Source: Ruegeria sp. TM1040
GTDB lineage: Bacteria > Pseudomonadota > Alphaproteobacteria > Rhodobacterales > Rhodobacteraceae
Length of the DNA stretch: 64,000 nt
Assembly: GCF_000014065.1 (NCBI RefSeq)
Contig: NC_008044.1
Span: 271,501 to 335,500, forward strand
Direction of reading: 5' to 3'
Shown: piece after piece, positions 17,570 to 21,060 of the stretch
Layout: every line of letters starts with the position of its first letter
How positions within the stretch are numbered: position 1 is the first letter of the stretch
Made by a program: the position numbers and the translations under genes
The notes under the pieces: model-generated
The model's database searches: none
Seen by the model: the letters and a program-made list of their open reading frames with translations, nothing else
Told to the model about the DNA's origin: nothing

Positions 17570-18223
17570 ATGCGCACCCCACAGACCAAACCCCTCCTGA
17601 CCCTGTTTGATCTTCAAGGGTTGGTGTTCGGGGTATTGATGTGCTCGCTCGGGGTGGTGTTCCTCAAGGCGGCAGGGCTAGTGACGGGACAGACGGCAGG
17701 CATTGCGCTCTTGTTGTCCTATGTGCTGCCGCTCGGCTTTGGGCCGTTGTTTTTTATGATCGGTCTGCCGTTTCTGGTGCTGGCGTGGGTCAAACGGGGC
17801 GCGGTCTTTGCCCTGCGCACGGTCCTCGTGGTGCTCGGGATCTCTGCCGGGGCGCAGATCCTGCCACTCTACCTGAGCTTTGACACGCTGCACATTGGGA
17901 TTGCTGCGCTTTTGGGCGGGGCCTGTAGCGGGGCGGGGCTCATTGCGATCTTTCGCCACAACGCTTCGGCGGGGGGGATGACGATCCTCGGGATCATCAT
18001 CGAGCACCGTACCGGCTTTAAGGCGGGCTGGTTTCAGCTTGGCGTTGATGCTTGCGTTTTTGCGGTCTCGGCTCTGGTGCTGTCGCCCGAGCAGCTGATC
18101 TATTCCTTTGTCGGGGCGATGTTCACCAACCTCTGCATCGTGTGGAACTTTGACGTTGCCCAAAGCGGCACGGGCCGCCCCGGATACGGGCGCGCGGCCC
18201 CAAAGGGCGCTAGCGACGACTGA
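17570..18223 (+). CDS. YitT family membrane protein
   Basis: This 217-residue, very hydrophobic protein has about six membrane segments. Segments such as LKAAGLVTGQTAGIALLLSY and HNASAGGMTILGIIIEHRTG fit the YitT (formerly DUF161) family. Biochemical function is unknown. AAGGAGA precedes the ATG. Its last 14 bases overlap the 3' end of the convergent MATE gene. Confidence 0.75.
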   Translation: MRTPQTKPLLTLFDLQGLVFGVLMCSLGVVFLKAAGLVTGQTAGIALLLSYVLPLGFGPLFFMIGLPFLVLAWVKRGAVFALRTVLVVLGISAGAQILPLYLSFDTLHIGIAALLGGACSGAGLIAIFRHNASAGGMTILGIIIEHRTGFKAGWFQLGVDACVFAVSALVLSPEQLIYSFVGAMFTNLCIVWNFDVAQSGTGRPGYGRAAPKGASDD

Positions 18224-19607
18224 AGGCCAGGATGATCTGGCGCGCCTGACGCTGGAACAGGCCGGGACCCTTGGGGGCGCCGCCGCGCGCCTCGACCTCT
18301 GCGATCACCCGCCGTGCAAGCCAGATCGCAAAAAGCCCAAAAATCACGCCGCCCACGGCCTGGCCGATCAGCGCGCCCGGGGCGCCAAAGAAATGCGCCC
18401 CGATCCAGACCAGAGGAATGGTCCCGATGGTATGCCGCCCCCAGTTAAGCCATGTGGAATGAAACGGATGGCCGAGGTTGTTAAAGCTGGCATTGGCCAC
18501 AAAAATCGCCCCGTTGAAGAAAAACGCCAGCGCAAGCGGGCCGCAAAAGAGGTAGATCAGCGAGAGCGCGGTCCCTTGCGCATCAAACAGCGCCGCAATG
18601 GGCGCGCGCAACACAAAGAGGATCGCGGTCACGGCCACCACAAAGAGCCCCGTGAACAGGAGCGCGTCCCAGAACGCGCGCCGCACGCGGTCAAAATTCC
18701 CCGCCCCGTAGTTCTGCCCCACGATAGGGCCAATCGCCCCCGAGAGCGCAAAGATGGTGCCAAAGGCCAGCGGTGACATCCGCGCAATCACGGCCATGCC
18801 CGCCACGGCCTCCTCACCAAACTCCGCCATCGCGCGGGTGACAAAGGCCTGTCCCACGGGCGTGGCAAGCTGTGTCAGGATCGCGGGAAAGGAAATCGCA
18901 AAGATCGGCGCAAGCCCGGCCACAAAGAGCGCAAACGGCGGGCGCTCCAATCCGCCGTGGTGGCGAAAGATTGGCCCCAGGGCAAAGACCGCAACCGCAA
19001 CGCGCGAGGCGGCACTGGCCCAGGCCGCACCGATCAGCTCCAGATCGAAGCCGAAGATCAGGATCGGGTCGAGCGCTGCATTGACCACGCCGCCTGCAAT
19101 GGTTGCCATCATGGCGCGTCGGGCATCGCCATGGGCGCGCAGGATCGCCCCTCCGGCCATCCCCATCAGCAAGAGCGGCAGCGTCGGCACGATGATCTGC
19201 AGATAGGCCACCGCCAGATCGAGCGCGCGCCCCTTTGCCCCCAAAAGCGCCACCAGCGAGGCGAGGTTGAACCAGATCACCAGCGCAAATATGGCTGAGA
19301 AAATCCCGCCCCAGATCAACGCGTTAGAGGCTTGCTGGCGGGCCAGAACGGACTCCCCGGCCCCCAGCGCCCGCGCCACAAGGGCGCCCGCGGCAATGGC
19401 GATCCCGATGTTGAAGGAGGTGGTGAAAAACAGGATGGCGCCCGCATAGCCCACCGCCGCGGCCAGCTCTTCCTTGCCGAGCATGGCGATGAACACCATG
19501 TCGATGAAATCCACCGCAAATACCGCCATCAACCCCACCGATGAGGTCAGCGACATCACCGTGATATGGCGCAGCAGGTTGCCCTTGAGAAACTTGGCCT
19601 GTTCCAT
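18210..19607 (-). CDS. MATE family multidrug/Na+ antiporter
   Basis: From MEQAKFLKGNLLRHITVMS the product is 465 residues with about 12 transmembrane helices. An AGGAG lies nine bases before this ATG. Typical MATE features include SVGLMAVFAVDFIDMVFIAMLGKEELAAAVG in the first repeat and GAIGPIVGQNYGAGNFDRVRRA in the second. It would export cationic drugs or metabolites in exchange for Na+ or H+. The gene tail overlaps the YitT gene tail-to-tail. Confidence 0.85.
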   Translation of the reverse strand: MEQAKFLKGNLLRHITVMSLTSSVGLMAVFAVDFIDMVFIAMLGKEELAAAVGYAGAILFFTTSFNIGIAIAAGALVARALGAGESVLARQQASNALIWGGIFSAIFALVIWFNLASLVALLGAKGRALDLAVAYLQIIVPTLPLLLMGMAGGAILRAHGDARRAMMATIAGGVVNAALDPILIFGFDLELIGAAWASAASRVAVAVFALGPIFRHHGGLERPPFALFVAGLAPIFAISFPAILTQLATPVGQAFVTRAMAEFGEEAVAGMAVIARMSPLAFGTIFALSGAIGPIVGQNYGAGNFDRVRRAFWDALLFTGLFVVAVTAILFVLRAPIAALFDAQGTALSLIYLFCGPLALAFFFNGAIFVANASFNNLGHPFHSTWLNWGRHTIGTIPLVWIGAHFFGAPGALIGQAVGGVIFGLFAIWLARRVIAEVEARGGAPKGPGLFQRQARQIILAFSRR

Positions 19608-19743
19608 CGGAGATCTCCTCGGATCGGGTTGGACTCGGTGCGGAGCCTCCGCCACCCTTAACTAAGCGCCTGACACAGAAGTATAAACCCTGCGCCTTGT
19701 GTTTTGAGGTCTGGCCCGCTGACGCTCCGCGTGATTTGGGGGA

Positions 19744-19772
19744 TCGACAGGCTGGCGAATCTCGGCTAGCGT
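19744..19772 (+). promoter_or_regulatory. Candidate promoter of the aroG leader
   Basis: TCGACA (19744-19749) and TAGCGT (19767-19772) are 17 bp apart. The predicted start point falls within a base or two of the leader ATG at 19780, which has no ribosome binding site. This would give a leaderless leader peptide. The boxes deviate from consensus, so confidence is low. Confidence 0.35.
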
Positions 19773-19779
19773 CCGGCCC

Positions 19780-19857
19780 ATGACCCAACAGTTCGCTCAG
19801 TTCTGGTATTACTTTTATCCGCGCCACATGGCGGACGGAGGGTCTTTGCGTTTCTGA
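19780..19857 (+). CDS. aroG leader peptide (aromatic attenuator)
   Basis: This 25-codon open frame encodes MTQQFAQFWYYFYPRHMADG and a short tail. The run FWYYFY places Trp, Tyr and Phe codons together, the classic sensor of an attenuator that measures charged tRNA. A stable terminator follows 33 bases after its stop, and aroG starts 45 bases after that. Ribosome stalling at the aromatic codons when aromatic amino acids are scarce would be expected to favour an antiterminator. No Shine-Dalgarno sequence is visible before the ATG, so translation may begin on a leaderless RNA. Confidence 0.8.
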   Translation: MTQQFAQFWYYFYPRHMADGGSLRF

Positions 19858-19890
19858 ATTGAACTGACAGAAACAGCCGAATACCACACC

Positions 19891-19920
19891 AAACCGCCCC
19901 GGGACCGAGGGCGGTTTTTT
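19891..19920 (+). terminator. Attenuator terminator upstream of aroG
   Basis: A perfect 9-bp stem (AAACCGCCC at 19891-19899 with GGGCGGTTT at 19909-19917) ends in six T. A competing upstream stem GTTTCTG...CAGAAAC (19850-19856 with 19868-19874) spans the leader stop codon. Both lie between the leader peptide and aroG. Confidence 0.85.
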
Positions 19921-19965
19921 GTTGCCCAGAGGTCCACGCGGGGCCCCCGCCCAAGGAACCGCCCG

Positions 19966-21060
19966 ATGACCACCCTCTCTCAGACACCGACCCATGATCT
20001 GCGCATCACCGACATGCAGGAATTGATCTGCCCCGAAGCCCTCGCGGTGAAACACCCGCTGACAGATGCCGCGCGCGAAACCGTGCTCTCGGCGCGCGCC
20101 AGCATCCAGAAGATCCTGCATGGCGCCGACGACCGGCTGGTCGTCGTGGTCGGCCCCTGTTCGATCCACGACCCGGAGGCCGCGCTGGACTATGCGCGCC
20201 GTCTTGCGCCGCTGCGCGCCGAGCTGGGCGATGCGCTTGAGATCGTGATGCGGGTCTACTTTGAAAAACCGCGCACCATCGCGGGCTGGAAGGGGCTGAT
20301 CAACGACCCCAACCTTGATGGGTCTTTCCGCATCAACAAGGGGTTGTCGGTCGCCCGCAAGCTCTGCCTGGATCTGAGCGAAATGGGCCTGCCCGTGGGG
20401 ACCGAATTCCTCGATGCCTCGGTGCCGCAATACATCAGTGATCTGGTGAGCTGGGCCGCGATTGGCGCCCGCACCACCGAGAGCCAGATCCACCGCGAAA
20501 TGGCTTCGGGCCTGAGCTGCCCGGTGGGCTTCAAGAACGGCACCCGCGGCAATGTGCAGATCGCCATTGACGCGGTGCGCTCGGCGGCCACACCGCATCA
20601 TTTCATGGCGCTGGCCCCCTCGGGTCTCGCGGCGATTGCGGCGACGGCCGGAAACCCGGATTGCCACATCATCCTGCGCGGCGGCGGTGGTACCAACTTT
20701 GATGCCGAGAGCGTGGATTCAGCCTGCAAAAAGGCCGAAGCCGATGGCATCCGTCCGCAGGTGATGATCGACGCAAGCCACGCCAACTCTGCCAAGGATC
20801 CCGCCAAACAGCCCGAGGTGCTCTCGGATGTGGCCGGCCAGATGGCACAGGGTGAGACCCGCATCACCGGCATCATGATCGAAAGCCACCTCGAACAGGG
20901 TCGTCAGGATCTGCCCAAGGACGGGGACCTGTCGAAACTCACCTATGGTCAGTCGATCACCGACGGCTGCATCGGCTGGGAGCAAACCGAGGCCGAGCTG
21001 CGCAAACTGGCCCAGGCGGTCAAAACACGCCGCACGCAGGGCGCCCGCCTGGCGGGTTGA
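19966..21060 (+). CDS. aroG: 3-deoxy-7-phosphoheptulonate (DAHP) synthase, class I
   Basis: The 364-residue enzyme condenses PEP and erythrose 4-phosphate in the first step of aromatic amino-acid synthesis. Class I AroFGH marks: VVVVGPCSIHDPEAALDYARRL, MRVYFEKPRTIAGWKG, GLINDPNLDGSF and VMIDASHANSAKDP. The upstream leader peptide and terminator indicate control by all three aromatic amino acids. Which isoform by feedback sensitivity cannot be told from sequence here, so the symbol aroG is used in the generic sense. Confidence 0.95.
   Translation: MTTLSQTPTHDLRITDMQELICPEALAVKHPLTDAARETVLSARASIQKILHGADDRLVVVVGPCSIHDPEAALDYARRLAPLRAELGDALEIVMRVYFEKPRTIAGWKGLINDPNLDGSFRINKGLSVARKLCLDLSEMGLPVGTEFLDASVPQYISDLVSWAAIGARTTESQIHREMASGLSCPVGFKNGTRGNVQIAIDAVRSAATPHHFMALAPSGLAAIAATAGNPDCHIILRGGGGTNFDAESVDSACKKAEADGIRPQVMIDASHANSAKDPAKQPEVLSDVAGQMAQGETRITGIMIESHLEQGRQDLPKDGDLSKLTYGQSITDGCIGWEQTEAELRKLAQAVKTRRTQGARLAG

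Follow-up and report, generated by a model that had tools for sequence, protein, structure and literature searches.

A conserved aromatic leader peptide and intrinsic terminator point to ribosome-mediated attenuation of the DAHP synthase gene aroG in Ruegeria sp. TM1040 and other proteobacteria

The pheA attenuator, represented in Rfam by Phe_leader (RF01859), combines an aromatic leader with a terminator and is centred on Phe. In Sinorhizobium, rnTrpL and peTrpL act in trans. Excerpts of PMC7298713 and PMC10117765 describe trpL (rnTrpL) of S. meliloti as a ribosome-dependent attenuator whose RNA starts at the leader ATG. Attenuation has also been proposed at DAHP synthase genes. In Acholeplasma, the DAHP synthase gene aroF is preceded by uORFC-13-1, a predicted attenuator that contains one or more Phe codons (excerpt of PMC8632094), predicted attenuators precede the DAHP synthase-tyrA operon of Vibrio (excerpt of PMC1173090) and attenuation has been hypothesised for aroF of Escherichia coli (excerpts of PMC8632094 and PMC2659441). 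In the order Rhodobacterales, to which Ruegeria belongs, uORFC-8-2 is predicted to exert ribosome-mediated attenuation ahead of cysS (excerpt of PMC8632094).

The window analysed here is a stretch of 64,000 nt of contig NC_008044.1 of Ruegeria sp. TM1040. On its + strand it contains aroG (19966..21060), preceded by a Shine–Dalgarno sequence, AAGGAA, at 19953-19958. The first-pass annotation had called this gene a class I DAHP synthase, which profile and structure matches confirmed: the product, of the AroFGH type, scored 514.9 bits with the NCBIfam profile TIGR00034, whose curated cut-off is 173.2, and the top-scoring solved structures were Phe-sensitive DAHP synthases. Upstream of aroG lies the leader peptide frame MTQQFAQFWYYFYPRHMADGGSLRF (19780..19857, + strand), which comprises 25 codons and a TGA stop, is conserved and is probably translated from a leaderless RNA. 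Its aromatic run, F-W-Y-Y-F-Y, is encoded by TTC TGG TAT TAC TTT TAT (19801..19818, + strand). Just ahead of aroG, an intrinsic terminator (19891..19920, + strand) consists of strand 3 (AAACCGCCC), a loop, strand 4 (GGGCGGTTT) and a T run. The two strands form a 9-bp stem at 19891-19917 and six T occupy positions 19915-19920. Frame, aromatic run and terminator, all noted in the first-pass annotation, can be read directly from the DNA. A consensus terminator scan did not detect the terminator at the window locus because its 9-nt loop exceeds the scanner limit of 8. Between aroG and a brief leader frame that carries successive codons for the product of the pathway there is thus an intrinsic terminator, and we put the probability that aroG is under a ribosome-mediated transcription attenuator at roughly 90%.

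Under this reading, aroG would most likely be switched on only when Phe, Tyr and Trp run short. The RNA would begin at or adjacent to the leader ATG, and a ribosome would translate the leader while RNA polymerase moves on. Should the supply of charged tRNA run low for Trp, Tyr or Phe, the ribosome would stall in FWYYFY and mask strand 1 (CCGCGCC, 19819..19825, + strand), which otherwise is predicted to form a protector hairpin with strand 2, both by RNAalifold on an alignment of 19 sequences (A1) and by per-locus folds. With strand 1 masked, strand 2 (GGCGG, 19830..19834, + strand), the 5' side of the antiterminator, would pair with the core of strand 3 (CCGCC, 19894..19898, + strand), which serves in both the antiterminator and the terminator. 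This pairing would form before strand 4 is made, so that the terminator would be blocked and aroG transcribed. When all three amino acids are plentiful, the ribosome would reach the stop codon and strand 2 would be kept off strand 3; strands 3 and 4 would pair as the terminator, with release of a short RNA of ~141 nt. Of these steps, we infer the transcript start, the stalling of the ribosome and the response to each amino acid.

The architecture is conserved at the aroG loci of the family for which upstream DNA is available. Among 61 genomes, aroG was matched in all 18 of the genus, counting TM1040, whereas the other 43 gave no match. In 295 Rhodobacteraceae genomes there were 18 matches, of which 15 were counted as aroG genes, the weak and partial matches L115-L117 being left out; all 15 have the leader and the terminator hairpin. 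The first-pass annotation had proposed alignment with other Rhodobacterales as a check on its reading. In the set of 32 Rhodobacteraceae loci with upstream DNA, which takes in the other loci of the genus (17 in all with upstream DNA) and two Leisingera loci, the leader, the aromatic run and the terminator hairpin were kept at every locus, a result that supports a ribosome-dependent attenuator. At one of them, L112, only three T follow the hairpin. An RNA model (R1) built from 29 family leaders gave ten matches in 198 family genomes, each directly upstream of aroG. As nine of the ten are in the model, this search shows the absence of other sites and does not provide independent finds.

Eight of 289 genomes of the class, TM1040 included, contained aroG, and one match was weak. 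Five of the seven other class genomes have the leader, one (L119) lacks upstream DNA and in one (L123) the leader is degenerate. In the latter, an alphaproteobacterium, aroG has a longer spacer and the leader is down to F-Y, with promoter-like boxes, GGCGG and a terminator hairpin still present; this is perhaps a decaying attenuator.

For the wider survey, loci were drawn from two genome collections, and one paralogue, the best match, was scanned per record. In the search of the phylum, 176 of 299 genomes matched and the best 30 places were used as loci. Removal of ten repeats (L155-L164) left 146 aroG loci counted as distinct, among which the two collections may share species. To be scored as positive, a locus needed a T-run hairpin together with a frame of 8-60 codons in which a stretch of six residues held three or more aromatic ones. 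Leader and terminator were present at 97 loci and missing from 46, while at three (L018, a locus of the genus, L065 and L119) the upstream DNA was too short. All 97 leaders begin with ATG and 96 have at least four aromatic residues in six. L034 and L033 (three in six, the lowest score) were counted as positive, and L086 and L123 as negative. Upstream of aroG in L086, a metagenome-assembled genome of Anaerolineae, there is a leader-like frame, MSRYFSFFSWYGYF..., for which no terminator was found. Positive loci belong to Rhodobacteraceae, Devosia, Bradyrhizobium, Mesorhizobium, Phenylobacterium (one locus), Xanthomonadales, Burkholderiaceae and Oxalobacteraceae, with additional single loci L046, L075 and L083. 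Leader and terminator were not found at, among others, the scanned aroG loci of enterics, Vibrio, Neisseria, Thauera, Rhodocyclus and Chromatiaceae. In a midpoint-rooted FastTree phylogeny of 145 AroG sequences, the leader tracks a branch of alphaproteobacteria and xanthomonads, in which Xanthomonadaceae are attached to the alphas by a weakly supported node (0.24), and a Burkholderiales branch. The exception is L075, a leader-positive locus among negatives.

Codon use bears on what the leader may sense. Twenty-nine family leaders were taken (L001-L017, L020, L021 and L102-L111), 27 of which have 25 codons. In these 27, the Trp codon at position 9 is invariant, and positions 8 and 10-13 are aromatic in at least 24, with F and Y interchanging. 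At these positions the synonymous codons are mostly both used, Tyr at position 13 being encoded only by TAT; such variation within the run is expected if the amino acid matters. Past the run, synonymous change is absent from codons 15 (CGC, 21/21), 18 (GCG, 27/27), 19 (GAC, 15/15) and 20 (GGA, 25/25), as expected if the RNA itself matters. Codons 4, 7 and 25 likewise show no synonymous variation. It is possible, if rather unlikely, that the leader works mainly on one amino acid, either Trp or Tyr/Phe, and that the other aromatic codons are incidental. The invariance of Trp would fit this alternative, as its neighbours swap F for Y or, at a few loci, are replaced by S, V, A or R. So would the lack of Trp from the run, which has F and Y only, in 16 of the 97 leaders; the other 81 have F, W and Y together. 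Against it stand the aromatic character of the five positions around Trp, maintained mostly with more than one synonymous codon, and the position of aroG itself, which serves all three amino acids. A joint response to Phe, Tyr and Trp is the more probable reading.

Promoter-like boxes suggest where the RNA may start. A -35-like box, TCGACA (19744..19749, + strand), and a -10-like box, TAGCGT (19767..19772, + strand), the latter 7 nt ahead of the leader ATG, are present where the first-pass annotation had put its candidate promoter, but a consensus promoter scan detected no promoter at the window locus, since TAGCGT is a poor -10 match. The -35-like box varies in the family among TCGACA, GTGACA, TGGACA and TTTACA. 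The 17-nt spacing between boxes recurs at 29 of the 32 family loci and the distance of 6-7 nt from box to ATG at 29, both together at 28, in a scripted survey that, of the candidate -10 boxes, chose the one whose distance from the ATG came closest to 7 nt. At L105 the ATG used in the count lies 16 nt from the -10-like box and an earlier in-frame ATG 7 nt away; no -10-like box was found at L111 and L113. As had been annotated, no ribosome binding site precedes the leader ATG: a Shine–Dalgarno core is present at only one of the 32 family loci and not at the window locus. Considering these features, the RNA probably starts at the leader ATG and is leaderless, like S. meliloti trpL. Leaderless RNAs are numerous in Caulobacter and have been found in Bradyrhizobium, according to excerpts of PMC4117421 and PMC4842269.

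Alternatively, the RNA starts farther upstream and the leader, with a 5' UTR, is translated without a Shine–Dalgarno site. This would agree with the weak -10 box and the negative promoter scan, and with the situation outside the family: a TANNNT box 5-9 nt ahead of the ATG occurs at 26 of 32 Rhodobacteraceae loci vs 4 of 65 elsewhere and, by eye, a TATAA-like box lies farther from the ATG in Burkholderiales. We nevertheless consider a 5' UTR unlikely in Rhodobacteraceae, where both spacings are kept while the spacer letters vary, and where pairing with the anti-Shine–Dalgarno sequence averages -0.79 kcal/mol at the leader vs -4.87 kcal/mol at the best in-frame aroG start. Outside Rhodobacteraceae the case for a leaderless RNA is weaker; in Bradyrhizobium and Mesorhizobium, CTATAT was seen by eye 7-8 nt ahead of the leader ATG. 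A gene for a MATE efflux transporter (18210-19655, - strand) is divergent from the leader. Between its possible start codons and the leader ATG there are ~125 or 173 bases, a short stretch that the two promoters have to share.

The proposed antiterminator was examined at 95 of the 97 loci, L082 and L112 being omitted as strand 3 was not placed. In this GC-rich DNA, strand 2, whose site was anchored by the motif only, reads GGCGG at 91 loci, GGCAG at three and GGTGG at one, and its core lies 8-26 nt past the six-codon aromatic window at all 95. The G-C pairs of the core scarcely vary and therefore yield almost no covariation information. In the flanks, pairs co-vary more than in shuffled data, to a modest degree in the antiterminator and to a strong degree in the terminator. 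For the antiterminator, with 65 unique combinations, position 6 was paired in 33 vs 22.9 by shuffle (reached by 0/5000 shuffles), position 5 in 35 vs 27.6 (9/5000) and position -1 in 30 vs 25.3 (29/5000), counts that are not probabilities because the sequences are related; about half of the combinations are unpaired at positions 5 and 6. Compensated changes in the terminator gave 52 paired vs 26.8 at position 5 (0/5000) and 65 vs 51.5 at position -1. L112 provides a concerted change in all three strands, with CCGCTG in strand 3, a matching CAGCGG in strand 2 and CCGCT in strand 1. At 75 of the 97 loci, three or more of the five strand 2 bases fold back upstream.

The switch was then modelled with a ribosome at set places on the leader. 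P(2:3), the probability of the antiterminator, was computed for RNA transcribed as far as the last base of strand 3, with footprint limits that we take to be appropriate for a ribosome. At the window locus it was 0.41 with the ribosome at the first codon of the run, 0.985 for a stall in mid-run and 0.996 at the last run codon, vs 0.004 for free RNA and 0.00005 when the ribosome stood at the stop codon. The means for the 95 loci were 0.93 in mid-run, 0.34 for free RNA and 0.37 at the stop codon; the mid-run value exceeded the stop value at 90 loci, at 63 of them by more than 0.3. In silico, the antiterminator is thus exclusive with the terminator and set by the position of the ribosome. Once the whole hairpin is present, the terminator wins at equilibrium even with a stalled ribosome at the window locus (P(2:3) <0.01) and at most others (mean 0.26 in mid-run), which implies that the switch must be kinetic. 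In classical attenuators, too, timing is held to decide.

Shuffle controls suggest that strand 1 is not the only competitor of strand 2. The difference in P(2:3) between mid-run stall and free RNA averaged 0.588 over the 95 loci, 0.494 with the strand 1 zone alone shuffled and 0.299 when the shuffle covered the whole sequence 5' of strand 2. At the window locus the real difference was 0.982. Shuffling the strand 1 zone gave 0.989, with 50 of 60 shuffles reaching the real value, and so does not discriminate there, while shuffling all 5' of strand 2 gave 0.303 (4 of 60). The 5' part as a whole appears to matter. In the free leader RNA, GACCC, which opens the leader, is paired with GGGTC. The leader RNA is also more stable than its own shuffles (z -2.89; 1 of 200 equally stable).

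An accessory hairpin, GTTTCTG/CAGAAAC (19850..19874, + strand), spans the leader stop codon and lies within the antiterminator loop. The first-pass annotation had taken this stem as the competitor of the terminator. The stem exists, but it has no base in common with the terminator, which rules it out as antiterminator; the competing pairing that had been envisaged is predicted instead between GGCGG and CCGCC. Support for a contribution of the stem to an extended inner antiterminator helix is moderate and uneven. Over 59 loci the mean z was -0.91 (26 below -1), -0.93 with the 3' side alone shuffled and -0.59 with 3' sides exchanged between groups. There was no signal in Burkholderiaceae (0.03), Bradyrhizobium went the wrong way when 3' sides were swapped (0.57) and the stem is absent from the MAFFT-based consensus. 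A GGAGG motif at 19837-19841 within the leader, present in 23 of 29 family leaders, may cause ribosome pausing or take part in RNA pairing.

Control of aroG by translation, an RNA-binding factor or a riboswitch, with an incidental leader frame, is very unlikely. The stop-codon hairpin and GGAGG could have other roles, and several codons past the run lack synonymous change as if the RNA were constrained. However, frame and aromatic codons are conserved across classes, and a terminator was present at 59 of 61 leaders chosen without asking for one. Moreover, no Rfam family except tRNA reached threshold in the whole window, and none matched at 20 related loci. As for mere chance in the intergenic region, hairpins are common in GC-rich DNA, but we give this explanation practically no weight: when the 300 nt upstream of aroG were dinucleotide-shuffled 20,000 times, an ATG frame with at least four aromatic codons in six arose 145 times, with at least five 5 times and with six once, and the features recur at 32/32 family loci, so that leader frame and terminator are genuine and far exceed what chance would give.

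The first-pass annotation rightly placed aroG at the entry of the pathway, but it is not the sole entry enzyme, since the TM1040 genome also encodes a class II DAHP synthase (L118, G000:C3:1366912-1368222). Class II enzymes (PF01474) were found in 52 of 61 genomes, including 18 of 18 of the genus. No aromatic leader with terminator was found upstream of L118; a single GTG frame there, in which three of six residues are aromatic, overlaps the gene start, and the top T-run hairpin in the 400 nt upstream scores 10, compared with 24 for the aroG terminator and the 15 required. A trpE-like gene (L165, G000:C3:1229453-1230826; 444 bits with TIGR01820, under the cut-off of that model) sits close behind another gene. 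Only frames within or overlapping that preceding gene were listed, no leader was seen directly upstream, and no T-run hairpin was found in the 400 nt upstream. Because the class II enzyme has no such leader, aroG appears to be an added isoenzyme, a second entry enzyme controlled by supply. This may explain the retention of a second DAHP synthase alongside the class II enzyme: one of the two can be regulated by supply.

More tentatively, the ~141-nt leaderless RNA and the 25-residue peptide might act in trans in the manner of rnTrpL and peTrpL, so that a single element would inform both an accessory DAHP synthase, in cis, and other genes, in trans, of the aromatic supply. The attenuator might likewise travel together with aroG as one cassette across Alphaproteobacteria, Betaproteobacteria and Xanthomonadales, in the alphas onto a class II background. 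We regard this combined proposal as doubtful.

The aroG leader differs from each of the closest known systems. The window gives a weak full-length match to Phe_leader, at 16.4 bits vs a gathering threshold of 55. The trpL element of S. meliloti, with a 14-aa leader that is unrelated in sequence and has a Trp run, controls trpE(G); the aroG leader carries a run of F, W and Y ahead of a DAHP synthase gene in place of a Trp-only run before trpE. uORFC-13-1 differs in having a ribosome binding site and in its 24 examples, which the excerpt of PMC8632094 confines to Acholeplasma and environmental sequences, and uORFC-8-2 has tandem Cys codons and serves cysS (same excerpt). The Vibrio and enteric aroG loci scanned (one paralogue per record) had no leader and terminator of the aroG-leader type, and this leader was not found among the matches listed from open PubMed Central papers. 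With it, the entry of aromatic amino acid synthesis gains an attenuator that is widely conserved, has no Rfam family and probably responds to all three end products together. Its many natural variants, with and without Trp codons and probably leaderless or not, lend themselves to testing how attenuators are tuned. The aroG leader is most likely of the classical attenuator kind, set apart by a probable joint sensing of the aromatic amino acids, a likely leaderless start and the breadth of its distribution.
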